A stretch of DNA of 37,539 nt, from positions 1 to 37,539 of the forward strand of contig JAEINO010000036.1 of the NCBI GenBank assembly GCA_016342345.1, in the 5' to 3' direction. The position numbers and the translations under genes are program-made. Origin of the DNA: Pseudodesulfovibrio sp. (lineage in GTDB: Bacteria > Desulfobacterota > Desulfovibrionia > Desulfovibrionales > Desulfovibrionaceae). The first letter of the stretch is position 1; every line of letters starts with the position of its first letter. The notes beneath the pieces were generated by a model, which saw only the letters and a program-made list of their open reading frames with translations, ran no database searches and was not told the DNA's origin. Shown one piece after another: positions 9,628 through 29,284 of the stretch.

Positions 9628-10053
9628 ATGAATAATGAGTTTGAACCGACCATACTGGCTTTTGTCTGCAACTGGTGCACTTATACTGCTGCTGATCTGG
9701 CCGGGACATCGAGGATGGTGCAACAGCCCAACCTGCGTCTGGTTCGGATGATGTGTACCGGCATGGTCGATCCCAAATATATCGTTAAATCTCTCCTGTC
9801 CGGGGCGGACGGAGTGCTCGTCAGTGGCTGTCATCCAGGTGACTGTCACTATATCAACGGCAATTACAAGGCGCGGCGCAGGGTCAAGCTTCTTAATGAG
9901 ATCCTGCCCCAGTTCGGCATAGAAAAAGAGCGGGTGAAATTAACCTGGGTCGGCGCCAGTGAGGGGAATGAGTTTGCGGCGACTGTGAATAATTTCATCA
10001 ACGAAATCAGAGAGCTTGGCCCCATGGAAGCATGTTCCATGGCAGTGGTTTGA
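9628..10053 (+). CDS. mvhD: MvhD-like [2Fe-2S] electron-transfer subunit
   Basis: 141 residues with the MvhD/VhuD/FlpD layout: an N-terminal FVCNWCTYTAADLAG motif, RLVRMMCTGMVD, then VSGCHPGDCHYINGN, which carry the cysteines for a [2Fe-2S] centre. In methanogen and sulfate-reducer complexes this subunit docks on HdrA and passes electrons from a hydrogenase, formate dehydrogenase or other hydride donor. All motif cysteines are ordinary Cys codons; there is no selenocysteine as in some VhuD proteins. Cytoplasmic. It lies between hdrA and an FrhB-like gene, so electrons probably flow from the FrhB-like protein through MvhD to HdrA. Confidence 0.9.
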   Translation: MNNEFEPTILAFVCNWCTYTAADLAGTSRMVQQPNLRLVRMMCTGMVDPKYIVKSLLSGADGVLVSGCHPGDCHYINGNYKARRRVKLLNEILPQFGIEKERVKLTWVGASEGNEFAATVNNFINEIRELGPMEACSMAVV

Positions 10054-10077: not shown

Positions 10078-11226
10078 ATGGCGACCACAGTGAAAATACA
10101 GGTTGACGGGAACAATCCGGTCCTGGCCCTGCAAGGGTTTTTGAAGGGGCTTCTGGACGATGAATCCATCGGAGGCATTCTGGTACCGGTTCATTTGTTC
10201 GAAAAGGGGTTACCCATGCCGACGCTGGTGACGGATTCGGCCAAGTTGTCCGGAGCTGATCCCCTGGCTCCAGCTTTTTCAATGAACAGTGCAAAGCTTC
10301 TGGCCCGTCTGACTCGTGGGCAATCGGGTGAGCGAATCGCTGCGGTCTTGCGGCCATGCGAAATCAGGGCGTTTGTTGAATTGGTCAAACTCAATCAGGG
10401 GAGCCTTGATGATGTGGTCATCGTGGGCGTGGACTGCATGGGGGCTTATGACAATCTGAGTTACAAGACATTTCTCGGTGATGCGGATTCATTTCAGGCG
10501 ACACTTGATTTTCACGGTCTGATAGGCGGGGAAGCTGATACTGTGCGAAATGGTGTTGATATAGCATCAGCCTGCCAATCATGCGAACACCCCGCTCCTC
10601 AGAATGCGGATGTTGTCATCGGCATTGCAGGGGCTCATCTGCATGAATCGATTCCGGTCATGGCGACCAGTGCTCGTGGTGAGGCCCTGCTCAGCGGGCT
10701 GAATTTGCCTGATATAGAATCAGCCAATGGTCGAGACAAAACACTTGAATCCCTGATTGCTGCCCGGATTGTGAACAGGGATGCCATGCTGGAAAAAACC
10801 AAGGCATTGACGGGAACCCTGACCGATTTGTCGGAATATCTTTCGGCCTGTGTCAATTGTTACAACTGTCGGGTGGCGTGTCCGGTCTGTTACTGCAAGG
10901 AGTGTGTTTTCAACACTGACGTCTTTGAGCACAAGCCGTGGCAATACATGGAATGGGCCAAGCGAAAGGGCAGCCTGAAGATGCCGACAGATACTATCTT
11001 TTATCATCTGACTCGCATGGCACATATGAGTACGGCTTGCGTTGGGTGCGGGCAATGTTCCAATGCCTGTCCCAACGGCATTCCCGTAATGGAACTGTTC
11101 AGGACCGTGGCGGCTCGAACTCAGGAAAGTTTTGATTACGAGCCAGGCCGAAGCCTCGACGAATCGCCACCGTTGTCCGTGTTCAAGGAAGACGAGTTCC
11201 AGGAAACGGTGTCGCACATGGCCTGA
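10078..11226 (+). CDS. FrhB/FdhB-like iron-sulfur flavoprotein subunit
   Basis: 382 residues. Residues ~80-180 (AAVLRPCEIRAFVELVKLNQ, VIVGVDCMGAYDN) match the coenzyme F420 hydrogenase/dehydrogenase beta-subunit family, which binds a flavin and handles a hydride carrier. The C-terminal third has CVNCYNCRVACPVCYCKECVF (~258) and CVGCGQCSNACP (~321), a two-cluster ferredoxin-like arrangement. F420 is not expected in this lineage, so the partner could be a pyridine nucleotide, ferredoxin or formate dehydrogenase; the sequence does not decide this. Its place between mvhD and a second HdrA-like gene suggests it is the electron entry or exit point of the complex. Good ribosome site AGGAGG before the ATG at 10078. 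Confidence 0.8.
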   Translation: MATTVKIQVDGNNPVLALQGFLKGLLDDESIGGILVPVHLFEKGLPMPTLVTDSAKLSGADPLAPAFSMNSAKLLARLTRGQSGERIAAVLRPCEIRAFVELVKLNQGSLDDVVIVGVDCMGAYDNLSYKTFLGDADSFQATLDFHGLIGGEADTVRNGVDIASACQSCEHPAPQNADVVIGIAGAHLHESIPVMATSARGEALLSGLNLPDIESANGRDKTLESLIAARIVNRDAMLEKTKALTGTLTDLSEYLSACVNCYNCRVACPVCYCKECVFNTDVFEHKPWQYMEWAKRKGSLKMPTDTIFYHLTRMAHMSTACVGCGQCSNACPNGIPVMELFRTVAARTQESFDYEPGRSLDESPPLSVFKEDEFQETVSHMA

Positions 11227-11254
11227 TTCCGGGCCTGCTTATTGGGAGGACGGT

Positions 11255-14200
11255 ATGAGAAAGCAATATGGAGCATTGGTGGTCGGAGCAGGTATTGGCG
11301 GCATACGGGCTGCTCTGGATCTGGCTGTCACTGGTCACAAGGTCGCTCTTATTGACAGGCGGCCCACTCATGGTGGCATCTTGAGCCAGTTGGACCATCA
11401 GTTCCCGTCAGATCATTGTGGCATGTGCAAGATGCTGCCACTCATGTCGCGGGATTCATCCAGCCAGTTCTGTCTGCGCAAGGGGCTTTTTCACGACAAC
11501 ATTGACATCATGTTGTCCACCGAAGTGGCTGAACTCGAAGGCGAACCAGGCAAGTTCTTTGTTTCCCTCAGTACCAAATCGCCGCTGATTGATCCGACCA
11601 AGTGTGTGAGTTGCGGCAAGTGTGCCGAGGTCTGCCCTGTACGGGTGCCAAGCGAATTCAACGCCGGTCTGACTGAGCGGACGGCTGTGTATCTGCCTGT
11701 GCCCCATGCCATTCCCAATCACTACGTTCTTGATCTCGACAACTGTCAGCGGTGCTGGAAGTGTCATGATGCGTGTCCCACCGGAGCCATTGATTTGAAA
11801 TTCAACGAACGTGTGGATTTCCATATTCTTGTGGTGGACAGAGATCCGGCAGTGGAAACTATGTTGAAGGATATCCTGAATGAATTGAACTTTCCCCTTC
11901 ATTGTGTCCAGACGGGTCAGGCTGCCGTGGACATGCTTGCTTCTGACGATCGAATTCGTTTGGTGCTTGTTGGTATGAATATCAATGACATGGATGCCGA
12001 GCGTGTTTTGACCAGAAGTCTGGAGCTCAATGCAGATATACCGGTAGTCGTGATGGCAGAGACATCTCAGATTTCCACTGCAGCCGCCATGGTCACGCAG
12101 GGGGCGCGTGAATATCTGGTCAAGCCACTTGAAGCCAAGAGGTTTGTGCCGTGGCTGGACAAACTGTACATGCGAATCATGTCCGATACCACCGAAGATC
12201 TGGAGGTCGGGGCTGTTGTTCTGGCTGGCGGATTCGAGTGTTACAATCCCGTCGTGGACCCGGAGGGCGGCGAGGATATCTGGAGTTATGGTCATCCCGG
12301 CGTTCTTACTGCTGTGGAGTTTGAGCGACTCTTGAGCGGTACCGGTCCCACAGGCGGGCGATTGCTTCATCCCGGTGACAATTCGGAAGTTCGGAAGATC
12401 GCCTGGATACAATGTGTTGGCTCGCGTGACGTGAAGAAGAACGCGGATTTCTGTTCGGGCATCTGCTGCATGTTTTCCATCAAGGAGGCCGTGCTTGCAA
12501 AGAAGGCCACCAATGGGGCTGTTGAAACCACGATATTTTACATGGACATGCGAACGTCCGGCAAGGGTTATCAGCGATATCGCAATAAGGCGGAACACGA
12601 GAAAGGTGTACGTTTGGTACGAAGCAGACCGCATTCGGTCATTCCCGTGAATGATGGCATGGACTTGAAGGTCGAGTACATGACCGATGCTGGAGAATTG
12701 GTCTCTGAAACGTATGACATGGTGGTCCTGGCTGCCGGGGCGCGACCTCCGGGTGGTATGGAAAAGTTTGCCTTGACCATGGGGCTGGACCTCAACGAGT
12801 GGGGATTTGCCCAGATGCAGCCTTATGCAAGTGAACGGACCAGTCGTCTCGGTGTATTTGCTGCCGGGTCCTTTGGGGAGCCAAGGGATATTTCGGAATC
12901 CGTCATTCAGGCGAGTGCTGCCGCACAGGCCGCATCCCGTATCATCAAGGTCTATGATGTGCTTGCAGGTATCGAGAGCGAGCCTGAGCCTGAGTATCCC
13001 GATGTTTCACGGGAACCTCCCCGGATACTTGTGGCGGTCTGTACGTCATGTCCAACCCTGGAACAGACAGTTGATCTGGAAGCTTTGAGTCGGAAAATGT
13101 CCGCTGTTCATTCCGTGTGCAAGGTTATTTCCGTTGGTGCGACGTGCACCGGGGAAGGGTGGGCTGAAATCGAAAAGGGTGCTGCCGAATTCAAACCCAA
13201 TCGGGTGCTCATCGGCGCGTGTATGCCTTATGCCTATATTCCGAGGCTCAAGGAGTTGGGCCGAAGTATTGGGCTTAACCCGGCTCTCATGGATGTGGTG
13301 GACATCTACACACCTACATTTGTTTTGGAATCGGAAGGCCAGGCGGAAAAGGAAGTTTTTGCTGCCCTGTCCATGGCTGTTGCCCGATTGCAGGGGGCTG
13401 ATCCTGTTCCGGTGCCTGTCACGGTTGATGTTGCTCGTTCCGCCCTGGTCGTTGGTGGAGGATTGGCCGGAATGACCGCTTCCATGGCCATTGCCGATCA
13501 GGGGTATGGCGTCTGTCTGGTGGAATCCGAGGAGGAACTTGGGGGCATGGCCATGCGGCTGCATACGCAGCTTGATGGGTCTGATCCGCACAAGTTCATG
13601 GAAGAACTCATCGGACAGGTGGAGAAGCATCCCAATATCAAGGTGCTCAAGGATTCCAGAGTGGCTATTTCCAGAGGCAGTGCAGGCCGATTCCGATCCG
13701 CAATAGCCGGGCCGCAGGGGGTATTTCCCCTGGAACACGGTGTTTCAATTCTTGCCACTGGCGGCCATGAAACCAAGGTCTACGAGAGTGGATTGTGTGT
13801 ACACAAATCAGTGATGACGCACCTTGCTCTCGAAGAGCAGCTTGCCACAGGCGTTCTTGATGCCGGTGCCTTGACCGGAGTTGCCATGATTCAGTGCTGG
13901 CGTTCCCGCGATGAGGACCGCACGTATTGCAGTCGGGTCTGTTGCCCGGAGATGTTGAAGAATGTCCTTACTCTCAAAAAGCGTAACCCGGACCTGCCCA
14001 TCTATGTCTTCTACAGGGACATCATGGTTCAGGGGTTCATGGAAACCTATTATACGCAGGCTCGCAAGGCAGGGGCAATCTTCATTCATTACGAACCGGA
14101 CAACAAACCCAAGGTGGCATTCGAGGACGGCAAGCCCGTGATCACGGCTCTTGATCCGGTCTTGAATGCTGAAGTGGAGATTCGCGCTGATATCCTGTCC

Positions 14201-14686
14201 TTGTCCAGCGGTCTGGAACCCAATGATGTGGAAGATCTGCTGGAGGTCTTCGGGGTGGAGGTCAACGAGGACGGATTCTATCAGGAAGCCGATTTCAAGT
14301 GGCGGCCCGTGGATTTCCTCAAGCAGGGAATTTATATGTGCGGTGCCGCCCATTCGCCTCGACGCATGGATGAAACCGTGGCCTCGGCAAAGGCTGCGGC
14401 ACAGCGCGCACTCAGGATTCTCAGTACGGAAAAGATAGCCCGTGAAACCGTGGTGGCTTCGGTTCGTCATTCGCTGTGTTCCCTGTGTCAGGCGTGTGTA
14501 GCGGCTTGTCCTTACGGCGCGCGGGTCGTGGATTTGGAGGAAGGAAAAATCATTGTGGACGAGATTCTCTGCCAGGGGTGTGGCGCGTGTGCGGCGGTCT
14601 GCCCCAACAGTGCAACTATTCTCAAGGGGTTTCATGACGGGCCTATGATGTCCGTCATCGATGCGGCATTGGAGCAACCTGCGTAG
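11255..14686 (+). CDS. Double HdrA-like flavoprotein with embedded pseudo-receiver domain
   Basis: The frame is open from 11132, but the ATG at 11255 follows GGGAGG and starts MRKQYGALVVGAGIGGIRAA, a FAD motif, so the protein is 1143 residues, far longer than HdrA. Order: FAD domain; cysteine segment DHCGMCKM; clusters CVSCGKCAEVCP (C117) and CQRCWKCHDACP (C164); a receiver-like domain (~189-305, FHILVVDRDP start, EYLVKP near the end); the remainder of the first HdrA module; an HdrA N-terminal-type domain (ILVAVCTSCPT, ~590); a second FAD motif LVVGGGLAGMTAS (~730); and C-terminal clusters CSLCQACVAACP (C1075) and CQGCGACAAVCP. The receiver's phosphoacceptor position is Gly (LVLVGMNIND, G240). 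The second FAD module lacks the central cysteines. Likely a cytoplasmic electron-transfer hub analogous to QmoB/HdrA proteins. Confidence 0.88.
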   Translation: MRKQYGALVVGAGIGGIRAALDLAVTGHKVALIDRRPTHGGILSQLDHQFPSDHCGMCKMLPLMSRDSSSQFCLRKGLFHDNIDIMLSTEVAELEGEPGKFFVSLSTKSPLIDPTKCVSCGKCAEVCPVRVPSEFNAGLTERTAVYLPVPHAIPNHYVLDLDNCQRCWKCHDACPTGAIDLKFNERVDFHILVVDRDPAVETMLKDILNELNFPLHCVQTGQAAVDMLASDDRIRLVLVGMNINDMDAERVLTRSLELNADIPVVVMAETSQISTAAAMVTQGAREYLVKPLEAKRFVPWLDKLYMRIMSDTTEDLEVGAVVLAGGFECYNPVVDPEGGEDIWSYGHPGVLTAVEFERLLSGTGPTGGRLLHPGDNSEVRKIAWIQCVGSRDVKKNADFCSGICCMFSIKEAVLAKKATNGAVETTIFYMDMRTSGKGYQRYRNKAEHEKGVRLVRSRPHSVIPVNDGMDLKVEYMTDAGELVSETYDMVVLAAGARPPGGMEKFALTMGLDLNEWGFAQMQPYASERTSRLGVFAAGSFGEPRDISESVIQASAAAQAASRIIKVYDVLAGIESEPEPEYPDVSREPPRILVAVCTSCPTLEQTVDLEALSRKMSAVHSVCKVISVGATCTGEGWAEIEKGAAEFKPNRVLIGACMPYAYIPRLKELGRSIGLNPALMDVVDIYTPTFVLESEGQAEKEVFAALSMAVARLQGADPVPVPVTVDVARSALVVGGGLAGMTASMAIADQGYGVCLVESEEELGGMAMRLHTQLDGSDPHKFMEELIGQVEKHPNIKVLKDSRVAISRGSAGRFRSAIAGPQGVFPLEHGVSILATGGHETKVYESGLCVHKSVMTHLALEEQLATGVLDAGALTGVAMIQCWRSRDEDRTYCSRVCCPEMLKNVLTLKKRNPDLPIYVFYRDIMVQGFMETYYTQARKAGAIFIHYEPDNKPKVAFEDGKPVITALDPVLNAEVEIRADILSLSSGLEPNDVEDLLEVFGVEVNEDGFYQEADFKWRPVDFLKQGIYMCGAAHSPRRMDETVASAKAAAQRALRILSTEKIARETVVASVRHSLCSLCQACVAACPYGARVVDLEEGKIIVDEILCQGCGACAAVCPNSATILKGFHDGPMMSVIDAALEQPA

Positions 14687-18921: not shown

Positions 18922-18953
18922 TTCACATAAATTCACAGGGATTAACATTGACT
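18922..18953 (+). promoter_or_regulatory. Shared direct-repeat promoter element, copy 1
   Basis: TTCACAT (18922-18928) and TTCACAG (18932-18938) are 10 bp apart, followed after exactly 9 bp by TTGACT (18948-18953). Same format as the elements at 20494 and 26092; this is the most diverged copy. It lies ~170 bp upstream of the DUF1566 gene. No good -10 at 16-18 bp is visible. Confidence 0.6.
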
Positions 18954-19121
18954 GACAATTCTCAAACCAGTCATATTCTATATGATGTAGATGAGATTGT
19001 TTGATCATGGGTTTTTTCAAAAGAACCAAAAAATGTGCACCCATCCATAACAGGCAGAGCACGACGCAGGGGTGGTTTTTTGTAAGGAATCAAAGACATC
19101 ATGAATAATCGGAGGAGAATA

Positions 19122-19613
19122 ATGTACACCTTTATTGTCAAAAACATCGGTAGATTCTGTTTTATGGTTTCAGTTTGCTGCCTGCTTGGCCTTGGTGTGG
19201 CGAGCAGTGCACTGGCTGGTGGCTTGGTGGATAACGAGGATGGGACCGTGACTGACACAAATACCGGTCTGATGTGGTCAAAAACTGCACATCCGTTCGG
19301 GGGTGTTCCTGTCCCGTGGTCTACTGCCGAGTCTCAGGCTCCATCATTTAGTGCCGGAGGAAAAACCGGTTGGCGAGTGGCTACCAAGAGTGAATTGCAG
19401 CAGCTTTTCCAGAATATGTCAGGGGCTGAAAACCCATTTACCAATCTCACGGACATGGGCGGGAATGTGCATTGGACGAGCACAGATATTTCTGGCCATA
19501 AGGCCGAGGAATATCACTCTTGTTACGTTATCGACATGACCAAGGGGCGGGTGATTTCCATAGGCAGGGATAAAGCTTACGCTTATATCTGGCCTGTTCG
19601 CAGAGCCAATTGA
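19122..19613 (+). CDS. DUF1566 (Lcl C-terminal domain) exported protein
   Basis: 163 residues with a Sec signal peptide (MYTFIVKNIGRF... ending SSALA, cleavage near 33). The mature part is a single DUF1566 domain: DNEDGTVTDTNTGLMWSK, the WRVATKSELQQLF motif, HWTSTD, and a terminal YIWPVRR. This family is found in many secreted or surface proteins; its function is not established. An in-frame ATG at 19101 exists, but GGAGGAG at 19111-19117 fits the ATG at 19122. It precedes a second small exported protein by 27 bp, so they are probably cotranscribed from the element at 18922. Confidence 0.85.
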   Translation: MYTFIVKNIGRFCFMVSVCCLLGLGVASSALAGGLVDNEDGTVTDTNTGLMWSKTAHPFGGVPVPWSTAESQAPSFSAGGKTGWRVATKSELQQLFQNMSGAENPFTNLTDMGGNVHWTSTDISGHKAEEYHSCYVIDMTKGRVISIGRDKAYAYIWPVRRAN

Positions 19614-19640
19614 ACTTTTTTGATACAATAAGGAATGATT

Positions 19641-20030
19641 ATGAAAGCGTTGAAGAGTTTTTTTGCGGTTGTTTTTTTGTTTGCGATATTTGCTGTTACC
19701 GCAGCGCATGCAGACAACGGCGTTGAGATTGAAGTCATCAACAAAACAGGTGATGAACTGAGTGTGCAACTTGAGATTCATGTGTATGGTGAGAAAAAAA
19801 TCATAAATCGTTCTGTGGCACAAGACGCAACCATCAAGTTCTACAGGACCGAGACGGCTCACGATGAAGGTGCCCTGTTGCCGTACTGGGATATCGTCTT
19901 TAATGGCAATTGCGTGTATAAGATAATGTCTGAGGATGGCAACCTGTGTGGAGTGCAAACCGGGGCATCAAGCTGCGCTCATGTCGAGGAACTTGGAACG
20001 TGCTCCTATCGGTTTACAGTGGCAGAATAG
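19641..20030 (+). CDS. Small exported hypothetical protein
   Basis: 129 residues starting MKALKSFFAVVFLFAIF with a signal peptide ending AAHA. The mature ~105 residues are beta-rich (VEIEVINKTGDELSVQLEIHV, IVFNGNCVYKIMSEDGNLCG) with four Cys (NGNCVY, NLCGV, SSCAH, GTCSY), which could form two periplasmic disulfides. AAGGA at 19630-19634 favours the ATG at 19641 over 19635. I recognise no family. It is probably cotranscribed with the DUF1566 gene and ends before a strong terminator. Confidence 0.75.
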   Translation: MKALKSFFAVVFLFAIFAVTAAHADNGVEIEVINKTGDELSVQLEIHVYGEKKIINRSVAQDATIKFYRTETAHDEGALLPYWDIVFNGNCVYKIMSEDGNLCGVQTGASSCAHVEELGTCSYRFTVAE

Positions 20031-20146
20031 GACACGTCGAACCATTGTCTTGATGGTGAGATTTTGATTTTGTTGAAAAATTGAAGGGGTAGCAATTGGT
20101 TGTGCCTTGCATCCATTTTTACGAATAGTATTCTCAATACCATAAT

Positions 20147-20187
20147 GAAAATGAGGACTTCCAACATTGTTGGAAGTCCTCATTTTC
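20147..20187. terminator. Strong bidirectional intrinsic terminator
   Basis: A perfect 19-bp inverted repeat (20147-20165 and 20169-20187) with a 3-nt ATT loop; stem core ATGAGGACTTCCAAC, outer arm GAAA/TTTC. AT-rich flanks allow termination in either direction. It ends the DUF1566 transcript. Confidence 0.85.
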
Positions 20188-20493
20188 TTGTGAATCCAGT
20201 GAGTCGTGAGATCGAAGGAGACCTTTCTTTAAGAACACAAGGTGTTGCACGTGTTTTCGTCAAGTTGTGTAGTGATATTCTTGGTCTGGTAGACACTGCC
20301 TTGCTGAAGCGCCTTTGTCTTGGGTGCGTTGCATGAAAACGGTGCCAAATAATGGATTATCAACAGTATCTATTCTTTGAGAAGTGCCATGGTACTCATT
20401 TCCATGTGTTGTCATTTTCCCTTTTTTTATACTGCGATGGCGTCGCCAGGCGTGTTGGTTTAATTTAAATATTTAAGGTAATTATTGTATTGT
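20188..20493. other. Intergenic region, no clear feature
   Basis: A short open frame (about 20190-20336) has no ribosome site and no recognisable product. Base composition becomes AT-rich towards the promoter element at 20494. Confidence 0.4.
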
Positions 20494-20525
20494 TTCACGT
20501 AAATTCACGTGAAATGTTTTTGACA
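20494..20525 (+). promoter_or_regulatory. Shared direct-repeat promoter element, copy 2
   Basis: TTCACGT (20494-20500) and TTCACGT (20504-20510) are exact direct repeats 10 bp apart; the second sits in a perfect palindrome TTCACGTGAA. TTGACA (20520-20525) follows after 9 bp and could be a -35 box. It lies ~200 bp upstream of the TolC-like gene that opens the exporter operon. Confidence 0.7.
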
Positions 20526-20727
20526 ATTCAGTTGTGTCTTGGGAAGTTTCATTACCTTTAAAATACAAAGATTTTATTTGTATTGTGAACTATGCTTTTG
20601 GGGGGCATAAGGATAAACACTCATTTTCTAATAACTGCCTGAGTTGTGTTTTGGGACTTTTGTTTAATCAGTATGAAGATGGCATTCATGACGATCGTAT
20701 TTATAAAGTTAGGGCCCGCATAATTTT

Positions 20728-22362
20728 ATGAGGGAGAAGATTTTGTTGGAGCCTTTTGCGCGGGTATTTATACGTGGAGTTCTAGCCTGTTTGCTTCTGT
20801 CTGTCCTTTTTGTCGGGACAGGCTGGACCACGGGCTTTTCTGTTGAGGGTAAGAATACGGAAACCCTTCGCATGAGCATGGGCGATGTTGTTGGTTTGAC
20901 GTTGCGCAACAATCTGAATGTGCGAACCAGTTACCTGAGCAGAGTGCTGGAGAAATTTGAGATTGAGCAGGCTGAAGCCAAATTCGAGCCTACTGTGAAT
21001 ATTGATGGCACGGTGAATTTAGAGGCGGTTGAGAAGAACAAAAGGATGTACGGACATTCCAAGAAGGCCCCCTCTTCCAAGTTGGACGCCGGGGTCAAAG
21101 CTTCAGTTGTCCAGAAAATTCCCACAGGGGCGGACCTTTCTTTTGTTTGGGACAACACTCATACTGATACTTCTGACGGCTCTTTGTCCTACGATGGTTC
21201 CGCTGGTGTCATCAATCGTACCAAGAGTAATTCCGGTGGATTCAAGTCGTCCTGGCGTGTCGAGTTCTCTCAGCCGTTGCTCAAGGGTTCCGGACTTGAT
21301 TACAATATGGCTTCCATTAAATTGGCCCGTATTCAGGAACAGCGTAACATACTGAGTTTGCGGGATACATTGAGTGCATTGATTAATGAAGGTGTGAACT
21401 TGTTTTTCACTTTTGTGCAAGCACGGGAGAATCTGGAAATTCAGCTTCAAGGGTTGGAACGTTCCAAAAGACTTTTGGAAACCAACCGACTCAAAATGAA
21501 ATTGGGGCGTATGTCCAGAAGTGATGTCACCCAGGCAGAAGCGGATGTTGCGTCTCAAGAGTACTCCTTGGAGCAGACCATAAACAGTCTGGACGATGCA
21601 CGGCGTAATCTTTTGAATCACTTGGAGTTGGATCAAAATGTCAATATTGAGCCGGTGAAGCAGAAGTATCCCAAGATCAAACCTGTTCTGGATGTCTGTC
21701 TGAACATCGCTTTGAAGAATAATCAATCATATTTGGACAAGGTGTTTGCTGTTACGGAGGCGAATACCAATTACATGATAGCCGAAAACGATCGTATGTG
21801 GGAGTTGGCAGTAACCGGGGGGTATGGAGAAGCCTATACCGATGCAAATCCTGGCTACTCCTATAAGGATACCGAATTGAGAGGGGGGATTGAACTCAAG
21901 GCCCCGATCAATCTTTGGGGCGGGGATTATCTGGACCGGAAAAAGGCCCTTCTTCAGGCTGCAACGAACAAGCGTCGTGCCATGATTGAGCTGGAAAAGG
22001 CCAAGAGAAATATTCAGAATCTGGTGACCAATACTGTTCGTAATGTGACTATGGGGTTGAAATCCATCAAGCTGGCAAAACGCAATACCGAACTTCAGGC
22101 TGAACAGTTGAAGAATGAGAATGCCAAACTCATGGCAGGTCGTTCAACAAATTTTCAAGTAGTCACCTATCAGGATCAACTTACTCAGGCTCAACAGGAT
22201 GAAGTGGCCAGTTCAATTTCCTATCTTCAGGCTCTTCTCGAGTTGGATCAAACACTTGGCACAACAATGGATACATGGAAAGTCGAGTTCAAGCATGATG
22301 ATACTAAACTGGAAAAAGATCTGAACGACGAAGTTCGGCCGCTTACATGGACATGGTGGTAG
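20728..22362 (+). CDS. TolC-family outer-membrane efflux protein
   Basis: 544 residues with a signal/anchor region (FIRGVLACLLLSVLFVGTG) and two long helical repeats typical of outer-membrane efflux proteins: SRVLEKFEIEQAEAKFEPTVN near 70-90, ETNRLKMKLGRMSRSDVTQAEADVASQEY in the first half and the matching NTELQAEQLKNENAKLMAGRSTNFQVVTYQDQLTQAQ in the second. It forms the outer-membrane duct of a tripartite exporter. The ATG at 20728 lacks a good ribosome site; a TTG at 20743 follows AGGGAG by 6 nt and may be the true start. First gene of a four-gene operon with the adaptor, ATPase and permease; the adaptor starts 3 bp after its stop. Confidence 0.88.
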   Translation: MREKILLEPFARVFIRGVLACLLLSVLFVGTGWTTGFSVEGKNTETLRMSMGDVVGLTLRNNLNVRTSYLSRVLEKFEIEQAEAKFEPTVNIDGTVNLEAVEKNKRMYGHSKKAPSSKLDAGVKASVVQKIPTGADLSFVWDNTHTDTSDGSLSYDGSAGVINRTKSNSGGFKSSWRVEFSQPLLKGSGLDYNMASIKLARIQEQRNILSLRDTLSALINEGVNLFFTFVQARENLEIQLQGLERSKRLLETNRLKMKLGRMSRSDVTQAEADVASQEYSLEQTINSLDDARRNLLNHLELDQNVNIEPVKQKYPKIKPVLDVCLNIALKNNQSYLDKVFAVTEANTNYMIAENDRMWELAVTGGYGEAYTDANPGYSYKDTELRGGIELKAPINLWGGDYLDRKKALLQAATNKRRAMIELEKAKRNIQNLVTNTVRNVTMGLKSIKLAKRNTELQAEQLKNENAKLMAGRSTNFQVVTYQDQLTQAQQDEVASSISYLQALLELDQTLGTTMDTWKVEFKHDDTKLEKDLNDEVRPLTWTWW

Positions 22363-22365
22363 AAA

Positions 22366-24111
22366 ATGGCAGCAATGATCATGAATACCGTATTCACAGA
22401 CAACGTTTTTCAGAACATGAATGATGGTGTCTTGGTTCTGAATGCTACAGGAAGCATTGTTGATGTGAACAAGGCTGCATCCGCATTTTTGGGGCTTGAT
22501 GCTTCTGCAACAAATGCGCTGCCTCTTGCAGAGGTTGTCTTGAACAAGGAAGAGAACGACGATTTTCTGCAGGTCCTTCTTGATTCTGTCTATGAGGACA
22601 GGACCATCCACAACCGAATAGTGGCTTTTATTCACCCGGATGGCAGGAAGCTCTTCTTGTCAGTGACTGCATCTCTTTTGCGCGATGATTCCGGCACGAT
22701 CAAAGGGGCAATTCTTGTTCTGCGTGACATGACCGAAATTGAGCGACTGAGGGGGAGTGAGCATGCGCTTAATGTCGAGCTGACAAAGGCTTTGCATGAA
22801 GTGGATGAAAGCAACAAGGCTCTGGAAATGTCTCTGAAACAGGGACAGAAAATTCGTACCAACCTTACCTTTGCAATTATCTTTCTCTTTGTTGTTTTGG
22901 GGATTTATCTGTGGGCTGGAAGCAGTGTGGACCAGGCTTCGGGCAAGCGGATATCTGCCATGGGAAGTGCCGGGGACCAATCCTCCTTGACTGTAGCCTT
23001 TCGCCCTCTTTCTCGATCGATTTCTCTGTCTGGATCGGTTGCTCCACTTGAGGAAATGACTCTGGCCGCACCTTTTCAGGGGAAAATCCAAAGCAAAGAT
23101 TTTTTTTATGGGGACAGGGTTGAGCGCGGACAAACTCTCATTACCCTTGATACCACCGAGATAGAAACACAACTTCGGGAAGCTCGGTCCGAGTACATCA
23201 AGGCCCGGAAGAATTATGCCGAGTTTGAACAATGGAACACGACTCCCGATGTTTCCAAGGCCAAGCGCGATCTGGGGCAAGCCAAAAGCCAGCTCGACAA
23301 GGCCAAGAACAAAATTTTGGAAGACAAGGCTCTTTTTGATGAGGGGATAATCCCCAAAAGTGAATATGATAGTACAGTGCAAGACCATCGGGACAAGCAG
23401 ATGCAACTCCTTTCCAGTCGGGAAAACCTGCAATCGATTCTGAAAAAGGGAGATGAGGAGTATCTGGAAATAGCTCAAATGGAGCTGGATAACGCCGAGA
23501 CAAAGGTCAAGGCTACTGAAATGAAACTGGCTCAAGCCGAGGTCAAGGCTCCGGTCTCGGGAATCGCCATACGTCCCAGTTTTACAGAGAAGGAGGCCAA
23601 GAACATTGCGACCGGGATGACGGTGTCCGAAGGGCAGTCTCTGATCTCCGTTGCCAGTTTGGAAGGATTATCCATCACCACCCAAGTGGACGAATTGGAT
23701 ATCAACAACATAGAGACCGGTCAGTCTGTGCTCGTTTCAGGCGATGCATTTCCTGGTATTCAGCTGAATGGTCAAATTTCTCAGATTTCCTCTCAGGCCA
23801 ATGAGGGGCAGGTCCCGACTTTTACGGCAGTGATTCGTTTATGGGATTTGCCCAAAAATGTGGAAAAGAAAGTTCGCCTCGGCATGAGTGCCAATATGGA
23901 GATAGAAATATATTCCAACCCGAAAGCGTTAATGGTGCCTTTGGCCGCCGTGAAACGTATGGGAGGGAAGACTCTTCTTAGTGTGCTGGGAGATGAAGGC
24001 CAGATCCGCGAGGTCGAGGTGAAGACCGGACACACCACCCTGACCGAGGTTGAAATTCTTTCTGGTCTTGAAGAGGGCCAGACCATTTTGCTTGTCCCCT
24101 CTGAATCGTGA
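22366..24111 (+). CDS. HlyD/MacA-type membrane-fusion protein with N-terminal PAS domain
   Basis: 581 residues. Residues ~14-125 form a cytoplasmic PAS domain (FQNMNDGVLVLNATGSIVDVN start, ILVLRDMTEIERLR end). A charged coiled coil follows (~125-165), then one transmembrane helix (LTFAIIFLFVVLGIYLW, ~167-187). The periplasmic rest is a membrane-fusion protein: lipoyl half LAAPFQGKIQSKDFFYGDRVERGQ, a coiled-coil hairpin (SEYIKARKNYAEF ... LAQAEVKAPVSG), a beta-barrel region, and a C-terminal AVKRMGGKTLLSVL domain. Membrane-fusion proteins normally have only a short cytoplasmic N-terminus, so the PAS sensor is unusual. It would link the TolC duct to the MacB-type pump and may sense a small ligand or redox state to gate export or ATPase activity (inference). 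Confidence 0.88.
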   Translation: MAAMIMNTVFTDNVFQNMNDGVLVLNATGSIVDVNKAASAFLGLDASATNALPLAEVVLNKEENDDFLQVLLDSVYEDRTIHNRIVAFIHPDGRKLFLSVTASLLRDDSGTIKGAILVLRDMTEIERLRGSEHALNVELTKALHEVDESNKALEMSLKQGQKIRTNLTFAIIFLFVVLGIYLWAGSSVDQASGKRISAMGSAGDQSSLTVAFRPLSRSISLSGSVAPLEEMTLAAPFQGKIQSKDFFYGDRVERGQTLITLDTTEIETQLREARSEYIKARKNYAEFEQWNTTPDVSKAKRDLGQAKSQLDKAKNKILEDKALFDEGIIPKSEYDSTVQDHRDKQMQLLSSRENLQSILKKGDEEYLEIAQMELDNAETKVKATEMKLAQAEVKAPVSGIAIRPSFTEKEAKNIATGMTVSEGQSLISVASLEGLSITTQVDELDINNIETGQSVLVSGDAFPGIQLNGQISQISSQANEGQVPTFTAVIRLWDLPKNVEKKVRLGMSANMEIEIYSNPKALMVPLAAVKRMGGKTLLSVLGDEGQIREVEVKTGHTTLTEVEILSGLEEGQTILLVPSES

Positions 24112-24120
24112 TGGATTATC

Positions 24121-24789
24121 GTGTTTAAGCTCAAGGACATTCATAAGGCGTATACTCTTGGCCCCATGGAAGTTGAGATCCTCAAGGGGGTTGATATGGA
24201 CGTGAAAAAAGGGGAGCTTTTGGCTATTCTCGGTTCTTCCGGTTGCGGGAAAAGCACGCTCATGAATATTATCGGTTTTTTGGATCAACCAACTTCAGGG
24301 CGATATGTCTTTGATGGCAAGCCAGCCGAAGGGCTTACCGATAACGAACTGTCAGGCATTCGCAATCGCAAGATCGGCTTTGTTTTTCAGCAGTTTCATC
24401 TTTTGCCCAAATTGACTGCCTTGGAGAATGTCTGCCTGCCCTTGTTGTATCGGGGAGTTCCAGCAGGAGAACGAGCTGAACGGGGGCGAGAGGTGCTTTC
24501 CAAGGTGGATATGATTGATCGTGAACATCATCGGCCAGGAGAGCTTTCCGGAGGTCAGCAACAGCGTGTGGCTATTGCCCGCGCCTTGTGCGGCAGTCCC
24601 TCTCTGATCCTTGCCGATGAGCCGACCGGAGCCTTGGATACGGCCACGGGCAATGAGATCATGGATATCTTTCTTTCCCTTAATGACAATGAGGGCGTTA
24701 CCATTGTCGTTATCACTCATGATCCCGGCCTGGCCATACGCTGCAAGCGATCTGTCCGCATGCAGGACGGAAAGGTGGTAGGACAGTGA
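24121..24789 (+). CDS. ABC exporter ATPase, MacB/LolD type
   Basis: 222 residues with complete ATPase motifs: Walker A GSSGCGKST, Q-loop FVFQQFHLLPKL, signature LSGGQQQRVAIARAL, Walker B LILADEPTGALD and the switch His in VVITHD. GTG start at 24121, 9 bp after the adaptor stop. It overlaps the permease start by 4 nt (GTGA), so translation is coupled. The short length and LolD/MacB-like sequence indicate a stand-alone nucleotide-binding subunit that pairs with the next gene. Confidence 0.93.
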   Translation: MFKLKDIHKAYTLGPMEVEILKGVDMDVKKGELLAILGSSGCGKSTLMNIIGFLDQPTSGRYVFDGKPAEGLTDNELSGIRNRKIGFVFQQFHLLPKLTALENVCLPLLYRGVPAGERAERGREVLSKVDMIDREHHRPGELSGGQQQRVAIARALCGSPSLILADEPTGALDTATGNEIMDIFLSLNDNEGVTIVVITHDPGLAIRCKRSVRMQDGKVVGQ

Positions 24790-25970
24790 TTCTCGGGGAA
24801 AATGTCAGGGAGTCAATCCGTTCCTTGTGGGGAGCCAAGCAGCGTTCCCTTCTGGCCTTGATAGGAATTGTCATCGGCATTGGTTCTGTCATCGCCATGG
24901 TGACAGTCGGCCAGATTGTCGAGAATGAAGCCATTCGTCAATTCAAGGAAATGGGAACTGATATCTGCATAGTCCGTCTGAGTGGAATTACTTCCGGCCA
25001 GAAGCAGAATAAGTCGTTGAATCTGGATGACATAATGGCAGTTCCCGAACATTGCTCGACCATCAGGGTGGTGGCTCCTTATGTTTCTACCTATTCAACA
25101 TTGACCTTTGCCGGGGTGCGGAAATCATGTCCTGCGTTGGGGGTAACCGAAGAATTCAGGAACATGTTCAAAGTCCCCCTTGTGGCTGGCAGATTCATAT
25201 CCGACCTGGATCGTCATGCCAATTTCTGTGTGCTGGGTTCTTCCAAGGCAGAATGGCTGGCTGAGCAGGGAGTAAATGAGCCTGTCGGAGAGAAAATTGT
25301 TTTTGGTGAGAGGATGTATACTGTCATCGGAGTGGCGCGGGCTGTGCCTTCAGGCACATTCAGTCCCTATGAGATCAACGAAGGGATCATGCTGCCCATT
25401 TCCACAGTGTTGCGGAGTCCTGAACGACCGGCCTTGAGTGTTTTCGGGGCACGCATGATAGGACATGGGGTAAGTGTTCACGCCTCTGAGCAGCTTCAGA
25501 ATTATTTCAATTATACGTCCAAGCAGAAAACCCGGATAACCAGTGCCGAGGAGTTGGTCGCCCAGATGGATCGGCAGATGCGGATGTTCACTTTGCTTTT
25601 GGGGGCTATCGGCTCCATTTCCCTTATAGTGGGCGGGGTTGGGGTCATGAATGTCATGTTGGTCTCTGTTTCGGAGCGTCGTGGGGAAATAGGCATTCGC
25701 AGGGCTGTTGGAGCAGAGCAGAACGATATTCAGCTTCAGTTTCTGGTAGAATCTGTAATCCTGTCTTTTGTTGGCGGGATCATCGGGTTGGGAGTTGGCA
25801 TCGGAGCCACTGCCATCATATGTCATTTTTCCGGTTGGGAGTTTTTTGTTTCCAAAATCGCTGCCATCCTCGGCGTTGGAGTTTCTGCCGCTGTGGGCGT
25901 CTTTTTTGGATACTACCCCGCCAGACAGGCTGCCAGGATGAGCCCAATCGACGCGTTGCGTTCTGCGTGA
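24786..25970 (+). CDS. ABC exporter permease, MacB/FtsX type
   Basis: 394 residues with the MacB permease topology: one N-terminal membrane helix (SLLALIGIVIGIGSVIAMVTVG), a ~230-residue periplasmic domain, then three C-terminal helices beginning LLLGAIGSISLIVGGVGVMNVMLVSVSER, with the conserved SERRGEIGIRRAVGA cytoplasmic loop and a terminal YYPARQAARMSPIDALR. It transmits ATP-driven motion to the periplasm to push substrates through the adaptor-TolC duct. Start is GTG overlapping the ATPase stop. Substrate unknown; the pump belongs to the group that handles periplasmic peptides, lipoproteins or macrolides. Confidence 0.93.
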   Translation: MILGENVRESIRSLWGAKQRSLLALIGIVIGIGSVIAMVTVGQIVENEAIRQFKEMGTDICIVRLSGITSGQKQNKSLNLDDIMAVPEHCSTIRVVAPYVSTYSTLTFAGVRKSCPALGVTEEFRNMFKVPLVAGRFISDLDRHANFCVLGSSKAEWLAEQGVNEPVGEKIVFGERMYTVIGVARAVPSGTFSPYEINEGIMLPISTVLRSPERPALSVFGARMIGHGVSVHASEQLQNYFNYTSKQKTRITSAEELVAQMDRQMRMFTLLLGAIGSISLIVGGVGVMNVMLVSVSERRGEIGIRRAVGAEQNDIQLQFLVESVILSFVGGIIGLGVGIGATAIICHFSGWEFFVSKIAAILGVGVSAAVGVFFGYYPARQAARMSPIDALRSA

Positions 25971-26091
25971 CCATTTTGGAAACTCTTTTGTCATTCAGAC
26001 AATATTGTTTTGCTTTGTATTAATCTTAGGGAGGCACTCACGTGGTTGGTCTCTGTGATTTTTTTTATGAAAATCGAGAGAAAATCGTGTA
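25971..26091. other. Intergenic region upstream of hydrolase genes
   Basis: Short AT-rich spacer with no gene and no clear terminator for the exporter operon. Confidence 0.4.
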
Positions 26092-26123
26092 TTCACGTTA
26101 ATTCACGTGGAATCTTTTTGACA
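26092..26123 (+). promoter_or_regulatory. Shared direct-repeat promoter element, copy 3
   Basis: TTCACGT (26092-26098) and TTCACGT (26102-26108), then 9 bp, then TTGACA (26118-26123). Core and spacing are identical to copy 2 at 20494. It is ~120 bp upstream of the first hydrolase gene. Confidence 0.7.
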
Positions 26124-26243: not shown

Positions 26244-27956
26244 ATGAATTTTTCCTTACTCACCCAAAAATCACTTTTCCCGTTCATTTTGCTTGCGGTG
26301 TTTTTTGTCTGGCACACACCAGCTTTTGCCACGGGTGGGATCGATCCTGCCGATCCCATGATCAAAATCACTTCTCCTCCTACAACTCTTGATATCAACA
26401 AAGTCCTGGCCGCTGTGAGCAAGGATGTGAGCAAGGCCACGGGAATCAAGGAATCCTTCATTACGTATTATTGGCAGACCTCTGATCATATTGTGTATGA
26501 GGGAAATGAAACAGCCAAGCCGCTATTCGTCGATCTGTATGTTCCGGGATTCTTTAGTGATGACGATGTAACAGGAATGCTGAACGCCATATCTGACGCC
26601 CTTGTGGATCATGCCAAGGTGGAGCGGAAGTGGCTCTTTATTCATACACACTTCCCTCTTCCCGGACAGGTCTATATTGGCGGTGGTATTACGAAGTGGG
26701 ACACTTATCGTGGCAAACCGAATAATAATCCGCGCGATATTTCAGAGCGTTCCTTGAATAAATTCCAGTTTAATGATGCCTCTTTCGTTTTTCAATGTCT
26801 CTGGCGTTTTGGTGTGGCCGCAACAGGGGGAGCCGACCTTGGCGAGGTGTTGACCATCACGAGCCGAATCGAGGATTTCAACAAGGAAAGTTGGTATAAA
26901 TCCTGGGATTCGATGGCCGGAAGAGTTCACGCCATGGCCGATGAGTTTGCGTCAGGCAAACATGCGACCAGTGCTCGTGAAGCTTATTTCCGTGCAACAA
27001 ACTACTATCGGGCAAGCGAAATATACCTTCCCGAGGCCGATCCTCGTAAACACGTGGCTTGGGAAAATGGGCGAAATGCATTTCTCAAGGCTGCGGCTCT
27101 TTCCAACGGACGGATAGAGCACGTTCGTATTCCATACGAAAAGACCACCCTTCCAGGCTATTTTGTCAAGGCTGACAACACAGGCAAAAAGCGTCCGTTG
27201 CTGCTCATACAGACCGGTCTCGATGGGACTGCCGAGGACCTGTATTTCATTTTGGGAGCACAAGCTGCCAAGCGTGGCTATAATTGTCTCATTTATGAAG
27301 GTCCGGGTCAGGGCGAAGCTATTGCACTTCAGAAGCTGCCTTTCAGATACGATTGGGAGAAGGTCGTTACTCCCGTGGTGGATTATGCGCTGACCAGGCC
27401 GGAAGTGGATGCAAAACGGCTGGCAATTCTTGGGTATTCCATGGGTGGCTATCTTGTTCCGCGAGCTTTGGCCTTTGAAAAACGCATTCGTTGGGGCATT
27501 GCCGATGGCGGTGTTTTCAGCGTGTATGACGGCACCATGTCCAAATTTCCCGAGGAAGTTAAAAATGGTGTCGGCAAATCCGGTCGTAAAAAGATCGTGA
27601 ACACGCTGGCATATCAGGAAATGGAAAAGCACCCGGACTTGAAACAGTTCATCAATCAAATGCTGTGGACCTTTCAGGTAGACTCTCCATATGATCTGTT
27701 CGTCAAACTGAAGAAGTTCACCATGGAAGAGGTCATTGACAAGATCGATACCGAAATGTTGGTGGGCAATTCCAGCGAAGATCAGATCGCAGGTTCCAAC
27801 GCACAGGCCAAGACGTTTTATAACAAATTGAAATCAAAGAAAAGTTATCTTGAGTTTTCCAATGCTCAAGGTGCCCAGTTCCATTGCCAATCAGGTGCAC
27901 CGTTTGTTTCAAGCGAGCGCATTCTCAACTGGTTGGATGAACGTGCAAAGCCGTAA
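26244..27956 (+). CDS. Secreted alpha/beta hydrolase (paralogue 1)
   Basis: 570 residues. Signal peptide MNFSLLTQKSLFPFILLAVF... ending TPAFA (~29). The C-terminal ~300 residues are an alpha/beta hydrolase: strand KRPLLLIQTGLDGTAEDLYF (oxyanion region), nucleophile elbow GYSMGG (Ser), an acid in the NSSEDQI region, and His in AQFHCQSG. A helical cap with AREAYFRATNYYRASEIYLPE resembles the FrsA / 2,6-dihydropseudooxynicotine-hydrolase group, which cleaves C-C or ester bonds. The N-terminal ~170 residues (VFVDLYVPGFFSDDDV-like segment and FIHTHFPLPGQVYIGGG) are extra and not recognised; they could bind a partner or substrate. GGAGG precedes the ATG. First of a tandem pair sharing the element at 26092. 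Confidence 0.85.
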   Translation: MNFSLLTQKSLFPFILLAVFFVWHTPAFATGGIDPADPMIKITSPPTTLDINKVLAAVSKDVSKATGIKESFITYYWQTSDHIVYEGNETAKPLFVDLYVPGFFSDDDVTGMLNAISDALVDHAKVERKWLFIHTHFPLPGQVYIGGGITKWDTYRGKPNNNPRDISERSLNKFQFNDASFVFQCLWRFGVAATGGADLGEVLTITSRIEDFNKESWYKSWDSMAGRVHAMADEFASGKHATSAREAYFRATNYYRASEIYLPEADPRKHVAWENGRNAFLKAAALSNGRIEHVRIPYEKTTLPGYFVKADNTGKKRPLLLIQTGLDGTAEDLYFILGAQAAKRGYNCLIYEGPGQGEAIALQKLPFRYDWEKVVTPVVDYALTRPEVDAKRLAILGYSMGGYLVPRALAFEKRIRWGIADGGVFSVYDGTMSKFPEEVKNGVGKSGRKKIVNTLAYQEMEKHPDLKQFINQMLWTFQVDSPYDLFVKLKKFTMEEVIDKIDTEMLVGNSSEDQIAGSNAQAKTFYNKLKSKKSYLEFSNAQGAQFHCQSGAPFVSSERILNWLDERAKP

Positions 27957-28015
27957 GAAGCCATGGGGCGCGAGAATATCCTTTGATGTCCGGAATCGAA
28001 CAGGGGGCGTATGCC

Positions 28016-29284
28016 ATGTATAGAATATTGACTTCTGCCTTAGTGCTTCTGGTTGTGTTGGGGTTGTTTTCCGGGACCATCGTGCAGGCATCTGAAGGTG
28101 ACAATTTTGATGCTCATGCGATGAGTTTTAGTTACTTCTTTGAAGATGGTGACATGGATTTCCATTTCGGAAATCTCATTCTTGGCTCTGCCGTAAACGG
28201 GGGAGTCGAGATTGGCGAGGCGTTTTATGCTGCTTCGCAGATCAAGGACGGTGATGCTGCAAGCTGGCAATCGGAATGGTTCAAGCTTGCGAACCGGGTT
28301 GAAGTTCGTGGAAATGCGTCTTTTGCTGAAGGTCATATTGTCAGTGCGCGGGATCAATTCCTGCGCGCAGCCTATTACTACCGCATCTCGCTGCTTGCGA
28401 TGCTGCCGGACAATCCCGAGTTGGAGAGAAGGGCTCTCAAGTGCCGAAGTTTGATGAAAAAAGCAGGCCCTCTCTTTGATCCACCCTTGGAATACTTTGA
28501 AATTCCCTTTGAAAATACGGTGTTGCCAGGGTACTTCCGCAAGGCGAAAAATGATGGGAAGCTCTGCAAGACCTTGATCATGATCGGCGGGGGCGAGACC
28601 TATATCGAAGACCTCTTTTTCTACATTGCTCCGCAGGCCTTTGAGCGTGGGTATAACTTCATGACCGTTGATTTGCCGGGTCAGGGGATGTTGCCTCACA
28701 CCGGTCATGTTTTCAGGACAGATACCAATATTCCCATGAAGAGTGTCGTTGACTACGCCCTTAGTCGTCCTGACGTCGCTCCTCAAAAGCTGGCAGCCTA
28801 CGGCTTTAGCGGTGGAGGGTTGTTTGTACCCCAGACCGCTATGCACGATTCTCGTCTCAAGGCCATTGCCATGAATTCCGCAGTGGTGGATGCCTATCCC
28901 CTTTTCTCGACCATGCCGGCTGCTTTGGCCACGCCTGATGAAGTCGCGTCATGGTCGTCTTTTCACGGTAATGTGGTCAAGTCCATCTGCTGGCGTTATG
29001 GCGTAGATCAGGACAACCCCTTTGGGCTGATTGAGGCCAACAAGGGGAATACCTTTGATCCGTCCAGAGTGAGTGTTCCAGCCCTGCTCATAGTGGGGGA
29101 AGGTGAATACAAGAGCAAGGAAGTGCAACGACAACAGCAGCTTGCTTTGGATAATTTTCCAAATCCGCAAACCAAAATGGTCATAACTCCTTCCAATGAA
29201 GGTGCGACAAATCATTGCATCATGGAAAACAGAAGCCTTGTGGGAGTTGTTCTCTTTGACTGGTTGGATGAGGTTTTTAAATAA
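28016..29284 (+). CDS. Secreted alpha/beta hydrolase (paralogue 2)
   Basis: 422 residues. The ATG at 28016 follows AGGGGG and starts a signal peptide (MYRILTSALVLLVVLGLF... ending VQASEG); earlier TTG/ATG codons at 27983-27986 would add a polar extension in front of it. The hydrolase core matches its neighbour: ARDQFLRAAYYYRISLLAML cap helix, KTLIMIGGGETYIEDLFFYI oxyanion strand, nucleophile elbow GFSGGG, acid in the VGEGEY region and His in GATNHCIMENR. It lacks the extra N-terminal domain of paralogue 1. The ~60-bp gap and same direction suggest cotranscription; it arose by duplication. Export implies the substrate is periplasmic or extracellular. Confidence 0.87.
   Translation: MYRILTSALVLLVVLGLFSGTIVQASEGDNFDAHAMSFSYFFEDGDMDFHFGNLILGSAVNGGVEIGEAFYAASQIKDGDAASWQSEWFKLANRVEVRGNASFAEGHIVSARDQFLRAAYYYRISLLAMLPDNPELERRALKCRSLMKKAGPLFDPPLEYFEIPFENTVLPGYFRKAKNDGKLCKTLIMIGGGETYIEDLFFYIAPQAFERGYNFMTVDLPGQGMLPHTGHVFRTDTNIPMKSVVDYALSRPDVAPQKLAAYGFSGGGLFVPQTAMHDSRLKAIAMNSAVVDAYPLFSTMPAALATPDEVASWSSFHGNVVKSICWRYGVDQDNPFGLIEANKGNTFDPSRVSVPALLIVGEGEYKSKEVQRQQQLALDNFPNPQTKMVITPSNEGATNHCIMENRSLVGVVLFDWLDEVFK

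Follow-up and report, generated by a model that had tools for sequence, protein, structure and literature searches.

The window analysed here, a stretch of 37,539 nucleotides on contig JAEINO010000036.1 of a Pseudodesulfovibrio sp., carries three copies of a 32-base promoter tag, each located upstream of a different transcription unit, and we are largely confident that these are copies of one conserved element which most likely serves a ChiS-family transmembrane transcription factor as its operator. All three (elements 1 to 3, Table 1) lie on the plus strand and agree with TTCACRTNNNTTCACRKNNNNNNNNNTTGACW without a single mismatch, as an earlier inspection of the bare letters (the sequence-only reading) had stated. 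The units which it had placed downstream, i.e. a DUF1566 pair, an exporter with a PAS-containing adaptor and tandem hydrolases, are confirmed by a Pfam scan. Coordinates refer to the window unless a contig (C) or locus (L) label is given, G numbers designate genomes, and the host genome comprises 4.15 Mb in 149 contigs.

Elsewhere in the window no further match to TTCACRTNNNTTCACRKNNNNNNNNNTTGACW with up to three mismatches is present, nor does any occur in 100 dinucleotide shuffles. In the whole host genome no fourth place comes within two mismatches of the full pattern, so that the motif is not scattered at random; at up to three mismatches the sole additional match is a three-mismatch site on contig C30, and the pattern read backwards gave one match as well. 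A looser 15-base core (TTCAC, TTCAC and TTGAC at fixed spacing, up to two mismatches) is found at 11 places of the genome compared to four for the backwards control. Elements 1 to 3 contain this core without mismatch, each of the remaining eight places with two.

The element recurs in related species. Among 98 genomes (host included) the pattern with up to two mismatches is matched in 16 and its backwards control in two; in the relatives, the sequence surrounding the better sites was read over as much as 20 kb. The exporter operon is preceded by a site in G021 and G004, Lcl_C (DUF1566) genes, recognised by Pfam or by similarity, in the same two genomes, and the hydrolase genes in G004, G001, G078, G016, G275, G308 and, for the second hydrolase only, G299. 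In 12 comparisons with the window the identity of the sites amounts to 0.69-0.84, a range which is partly selected as the sites had been located by motif, versus 0.20-0.42 in the 60-bp flanks; the flanks of the sites in the relatives are thus near chance. That the three promoters form a shared regulon, as had been claimed, is strongly supported by an element which accompanies the same operons across species without being scattered in the genome. Other sites stand directly in front of genes for an autotransporter (L044, L114, L123 and, by similarity, L046), an FG-GAP protein (L047, L118, L121), a collar-domain protein with an autotransporter farther along the same strand (L108, L109) or a GLUG/fibronectin-type protein (L049). 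The recognisable targets are hence mostly surface or export genes, namely those of autotransporters, FG-GAP and Lcl_C proteins, the MacAB-TolC-type exporter and the hydrolases; L041, L110 and two sites in L040 lack a recognisable target. Matches with two mismatches in G002, G009, G015, G024, G035, G051, G087 and G041:C1 were excluded as sites, those in G024 and G035 being situated inside an open reading frame (ORF) similar to a chemotaxis receptor.

Near the sites of L045, L047 and L048 we find 7TMR-DISM proteins which share a C-terminal stretch without a Pfam match. The profile of this stretch (A1), built from three site-bearing genomes which are all among the 20 genomes with site and domain described below, matches 11 of the 98 genomes, one match each, and recognises the ChiS structure (PDB 7kpo) with an E value of 2e-21. 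The host genome encodes a single protein with this domain, 1153 amino acids in length (C14:11836-15297, minus strand; L062), in which 7TMR-DISM_7TM, HisKA, HATPase, receiver and PAS domains are combined with the C-terminal ChiS-type domain (residues 1056-1141, E 5.5e-19 to 7kpo). Judged by the homology of its C-terminal domain, the C14 protein is a ChiS-family member whose sensory domains are present within a predicted membrane protein. In an alignment of 33 sequences, which contains one gene twice and four sequences from outside the order, three of the five positions reported as critical in ChiS (the other two being 1074 and 1092) retain arginine or lysine, namely 1068 in 28, 1078 in all 33 and 1090 in 32; the C14 domain is basic at all three. 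Kinase-less 7TMR-DISM proteins of 549-657 amino acids adjoin the same element in L047, L048, L112, L113, L118 and L119. It is therefore the shared C-terminal domain which tracks the site, and these forms point to it as the reader of the element; they also suggest that the system can do without phosphorylation. A protein of 376-390 amino acids contains the ChiS-type domain in G313 and G314 (L126:8902-10032, L127:6343-7515), and the L126 protein additionally possesses a LuxR (GerE) domain, i.e. two DNA-binding domains in one chain.

Genomes with a site nearly always encode the domain as well. Across 348 genomes of the order Desulfovibrionales, including the host, sites with at most one mismatch are present in 21, the ChiS-type domain in 28 and both in 20 (Fisher test, 4e-25, without phylogenetic correction). 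Counted by genus, all seven genera with a site are among the eight with the domain out of 59 (p 2.3e-8, likewise uncorrected for phylogeny), and outside the host's own genus the co-occurrence holds in 15 of 15 cases. The backwards pattern has no match among the matches listed in this search. Site and domain are no more than 15 kb apart in 16 of the 20 genomes which have both, and in G123, G258, G275 and G328 the site is less than 100 bp away from the regulator gene. By means of a more sensitive model of the site (R1), sites are gained in G259, G269 and G314 (E 7.4e-5), raising the number of domain genomes with a site to 23 of 28, where the matches in G314 and the second one in G259 were counted from the match table; in 12 genomes lacking the domain as well as any site with at most one mismatch, R1 gives no match below E 0.1.

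The orthologues of the first hydrolase provide a natural control. Matches to this protein above 750 bits are found in 13 of the 345 genomes searched. Where the domain is encoded too, the element stands directly upstream of the hydrolase gene in six of seven genomes and, in the seventh (G021), before the adjoining exporter operon; where the domain is missing, it is absent in five of six and present in one (G016, whose score is the lowest among the seven). Hence it is the regulator and not the hydrolase gene which the element follows.

The consensus of 34 distinct sites, i.e. those with up to two mismatches plus one with three, reads TTTTCACGTGAATTCACGTGGAAT-N4-TTGACA (model A3 comprises 32 of them, the near-copies L115 and L120 being omitted). 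Columns which had been left free in the search pattern are nevertheless conserved, namely G at 17 in 32, A at 19 in 29 and T at -1 in 27 of the 34 sites, which supports the sites as real. In its ideal form the 20-bp core, TTCACGTGAATTCACGTGAA, repeats a 10-bp unit in tandem and is at the same time perfectly palindromic; since both 10-bp units are palindromic, it may be read as a direct or as an inverted repeat. TTGAC follows exactly 6 nt past the core in 31 of 34 core places, a proportion which is biased, the full motif having been used to retrieve the loci. The sites of G259 and G269, found with the site model, lack this box, which is why we regard it as probably a separable -35 box. At L143:1501-1526 in G259 the core without TTGAC lies upstream of an ORF which, by eye, resembles a two-partner-secretion transporter. 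In G021 three tandem units instead of two precede TTGAC (L040:12842-12883), and the same locus contains two sites back to back in opposite orientations at 9883-9914 and 9981-10012.

The three elements had been described as devoid of a clear -10 box at normal spacing, and over the 34 sites this signal is indeed weak at the spacings tried: the mean score peaks at a spacer of 17 bp (-1.38), marginally above that at 24 bp (-1.52), ten of the 34 sites score above zero at 17 bp, and no strongly conserved column that would mark a distinct -10 at fixed spacing is found downstream of TTGAC. TTGAC at fixed spacing together with a weak -10 would fit an activator-dependent sigma-70 promoter. By eye, the promoters of the elements are unlike sigma-54-type promoters, no scan having been aimed at that type; a sigma-54 activator is encoded at 5314-6720 of the window.

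We propose that the ChiS-family factor, in the host genome the C14 protein, binds the tandem TTCACGTGAA units and, with no need of a separate response regulator, activates transcription at the TTGACA box next to them. A signal from outside, probably a small ligand of the 7TMR-DISM receptor, would alter the state of the cytoplasmic domains, whereupon the C-terminal domain would bind DNA while the protein remains in the membrane. The regulon would here consist of the Lcl_C pair, the MacAB-TolC-type exporter and the hydrolase pair and, in the relatives, often of a large surface protein encoded in the vicinity of the regulator gene. The hybrid two-component systems of Bacteroides likewise unite sensor, kinase, receiver and DNA-binding domain in a single membrane protein, but their DNA-binding domain is of AraC type as opposed to the ChiS type found here.

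The closest known counterpart is ChiS itself. According to the text of PMC8092284 (Klancher et al. 2021), the ChiS-type domain of Vibrio cholerae alone suffices for sequence-specific DNA binding, and ChiS binds two sites in the Vibrio chb promoter. Between chiS and the chitin-binding-protein gene, an alignment of 71 of 80 Vibrio loci, those with both genes in the expected layout, shows a conserved block, TTTTRACGTTTTTRACGGGAAT-N4-TTGATA, plus an upstream copy, and this block presumably corresponds to the reported ChiS sites. In the block region, which was picked after the block had been seen, the motif of the element scores a mean of 16.8 bits versus 11.5 for column-permuted motifs, with none of 400 reaching it. 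Over the whole Vibrio promoter one of 400 does, and the best match falls inside the block in 47 of the 71 loci. The initial search of the Vibrio loci for the element pattern revealed nothing convincing, the resemblance becoming apparent only in a gapped comparison, and we consider this similarity of motifs supportive, not decisive.

As in V. cholerae ChiS, a membrane hybrid kinase with receiver and PAS ends in the same DNA-binding domain, and as in its promoter two units are present, the similar block of the Vibrio promoters being GAAT-N4-TTGAYA. Unlike ChiS, the present proteins use a 7TMR-DISM sensor and exist in kinase-less forms as well, their unit is TTCACGTGAA in contrast to the TTRACGTT-like unit of Vibrio, and their targets are surface and export genes: within the subset of target genes subjected to Pfam scans there is no chitinase or chb-like family. 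The C, rather than A or G, in TTNACG may go with a swap from QTR to RTQ in the recognition region. It appears rather probable to us that ChiS-type domains from Vibrio to this order share one recognition mode, i.e. pairs of TTNACG half-sites, spaced by roughly one turn of the helix and placed at a fixed distance before the -35 box, and act here as stand-alone membrane switches, with or without kinase, each for a few surface or export genes. If so, one protein would carry an outside signal to one promoter.

Several observations weigh against assigning the element to the ChiS-type protein or against the kinship with Vibrio. Regulator and sites are unlinked in the host genome, G034, G299 and G267; in the host, the 20 kb around the C14 regulator gene contain no site, the three elements being located on another contig. 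No site is found in G024, G035, G029 and G090 despite the domain, in G313 with its LuxR-fused form or, below E 0.1, in five domain-bearing genomes outside the order. Conversely, G016 (site before the hydrolase gene) and G096 (strong site, E 2.2e-7) have no domain match; their regulator may have been lost, missed or be a different one. At position 1074, which the model of ChiS places close to the bases, 31 of the 33 aligned sequences have glutamine, differing in this from V. cholerae ChiS, and position 1092 is basic in only 21; the C14 domain has glutamine at both. The units of Vibrio repeat with a period of 9 bp compared to 10 bp in the element, and shuffles of eight single Vibrio promoters reach the observed score in 0, 1, 2, 2, 49, 7, 28 and 29 of 60 trials. 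The sites of G016 and G096 are located at L050:10008-10039 and L049:15320-15351, respectively, and in G016 a second partial site follows about 75 bp downstream of the first. In G024 and G029 the regulator gene is distributed over separate frames (L063:9238-12687, L070:52-3196) and neither genome has a site that was found; decay of the system or an assembly error is possible.

The sequence-only reading had attributed the element to an activator of the OmpR/PhoB class. Boxes of this class, e.g. GTAAA-N5-GTAAA of CpxR, indeed consist of tandem half-sites one helical turn apart upstream of the -35 box, and OmpR-type proteins are encoded in all 17 site genomes tested, three of them in the host. This class is, however, so widespread (10 of 14 control genomes) that its presence marks nothing, and no winged-helix regulator is regularly linked to the present element: only two of the 17 genomes (G308, G004) have an OmpR-type C-terminal domain at 15 kb or less from a site, as opposed to 15 for the ChiS type. 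The 17 are a subset of the 20 with site and domain, from which G299 and G267 (ChiS type unlinked) and G304 (linked) were omitted. We consider a box for an OmpR/PhoB-class response regulator very unlikely. Somewhat less so, though still improbable, is another regulator which travels with the ChiS-type protein and binds the element, leaving the latter as its mere sensor, as neither co-occurrence nor linkage can tell apart two proteins which are always found together. Genes of other DNA-binding families do occur near sites, namely TetR in L112 and GntR in L113 as well as, assigned through 98% identity, in L115. Yet the ORFs scanned beside the sites, which are not all of them, reveal no repeated second DNA-binding family except GntR in two close species, and the V. 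cholerae domain is reported to bind DNA by itself (PMC8092284, text).

The lack of a clear -10 at normal spacing had also raised the idea of an alternative sigma factor, of which TTGAC would be the -35 box, and the -10 is weak at every spacing tried. Such a factor is not needed to account for a pattern that would fit activator-dependent sigma-70 transcription. Moreover, conservation extends 26 bp upstream of TTGAC with no strongly conserved column downstream of it, the best spacer equals the sigma-70 value, if only marginally, and the core exists without TTGAC, as in L143, which renders this explanation highly improbable. The chance that the palindromic core and its T residues form a hairpin terminating a transcript from upstream is next to negligible: elements 2 and 3 do figure in a terminator scan as stem-loops followed by T runs, but the fixed position of TTGAC, given the bias noted above, the conservation of sequence and not of pairing alone with unit 1 often breaking the palindrome, and the opposite orientations of the two sites in L040 argue otherwise, and the co-occurrence with the ChiS-type domain would be left unexplained.

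The ChiS family as such is known, and 7TMR-DISM is already listed among its partner domains (PMC8092284, legend to Fig. 5). For the combination of both, the text of that survey states neither a binding site nor a target, and "Desulfo" is absent from its main text. In the open-licence literature we found no report of the TTCACGTGAA motif, no paper on 7TMR-DISM with a DNA-binding domain in Desulfovibrio and, judged by title, none on the protein for ChiS combined with Desulfovibrio. Within the literature searched, the predicted operator and its targets thus appear to be new, as do the kinase-less proteins which adjoin it. Targets can now be proposed for 7TMR-DISM/ChiS-domain regulators, and autotransporters, FG-GAP proteins and an exporter are predicted to be controlled from the membrane. 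Seven genera, with 20 genomes which encode the domain, share the conserved predicted operator, and together with the natural variants of the domain it offers DNA-protein pairs for testing.

Table 1. Elements and downstream genes in the window (R1, site model; "exported" calls rest on the family or on the N-terminus judged by eye).
Feature	Position	Strand	Evidence
Element 1 (two 10-bp units and TTGACT box)	18922..18953	+	0 mismatches; upstream of Lcl_C unit; R1 E 3e-7 (model built partly from this element)
TTGACT, putative -35 box of element 1	18948..18953	+	sequence; present in promoter scan list
Lcl_C (DUF1566) protein, 170 amino acids	19101..19613	+	PF07603 E 2.2e-15; exported-looking by eye
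131-amino-acid protein	19635..20030	+	signal-peptide-like start by eye; no Pfam match
Element 2	20494..20525	+	exact match; upstream of exporter operon; R1 E 6.8e-10
TTGACA, putative -35 box of element 2	20520..20525	+	sequence
TolC-type outer-membrane channel	20728..22362	+	PF02321 E 4.4e-35
PAS + MacA/HlyD-type adaptor fusion	22366..24111	+	PF13426, PF16576; MacA structures, best E 1.3e-13
ABC transporter ATPase	24121..24789	+	PF00005 E 4e-35
MacB-like FtsX permease	24786..25970	+	PF12704, PF02687
Element 3	26092..26123	+	exact match; upstream of hydrolase pair; R1 E 1.4e-10
TTGACA, putative -35 box of element 3	26118..26123	+	sequence
FrsA-like alpha/beta hydrolase (first)	26244..27956	+	PF06500; PDB 3fnb E 7.3e-27; signal-peptide-like start by eye
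FrsA-like hydrolase (second)	27983..29284	+	PF06500 E 6.4e-7

In relatives the hydrolase pair is followed by a third gene of about 364 codons (L043:3240-4331, L045:5474-6568, L048:395-1492), the product of which lacks a Pfam match in L043 and begins like a lipoprotein in L048; on the plus strand of the window no equivalent is found after 29284. In the exporter operon, the PAS domain is situated at the N-terminus of the MacA/HlyD-type periplasmic adaptor, an unusual place for a sensory domain in an exporter. Farther upstream in the window, 11132-14686 encodes an HdrA-like flavin adenine dinucleotide/iron-sulfur protein which harbours a receiver domain (residues 232-338) between its modules and whose gene adjoins FlpD, FrhB-like and CCG genes.

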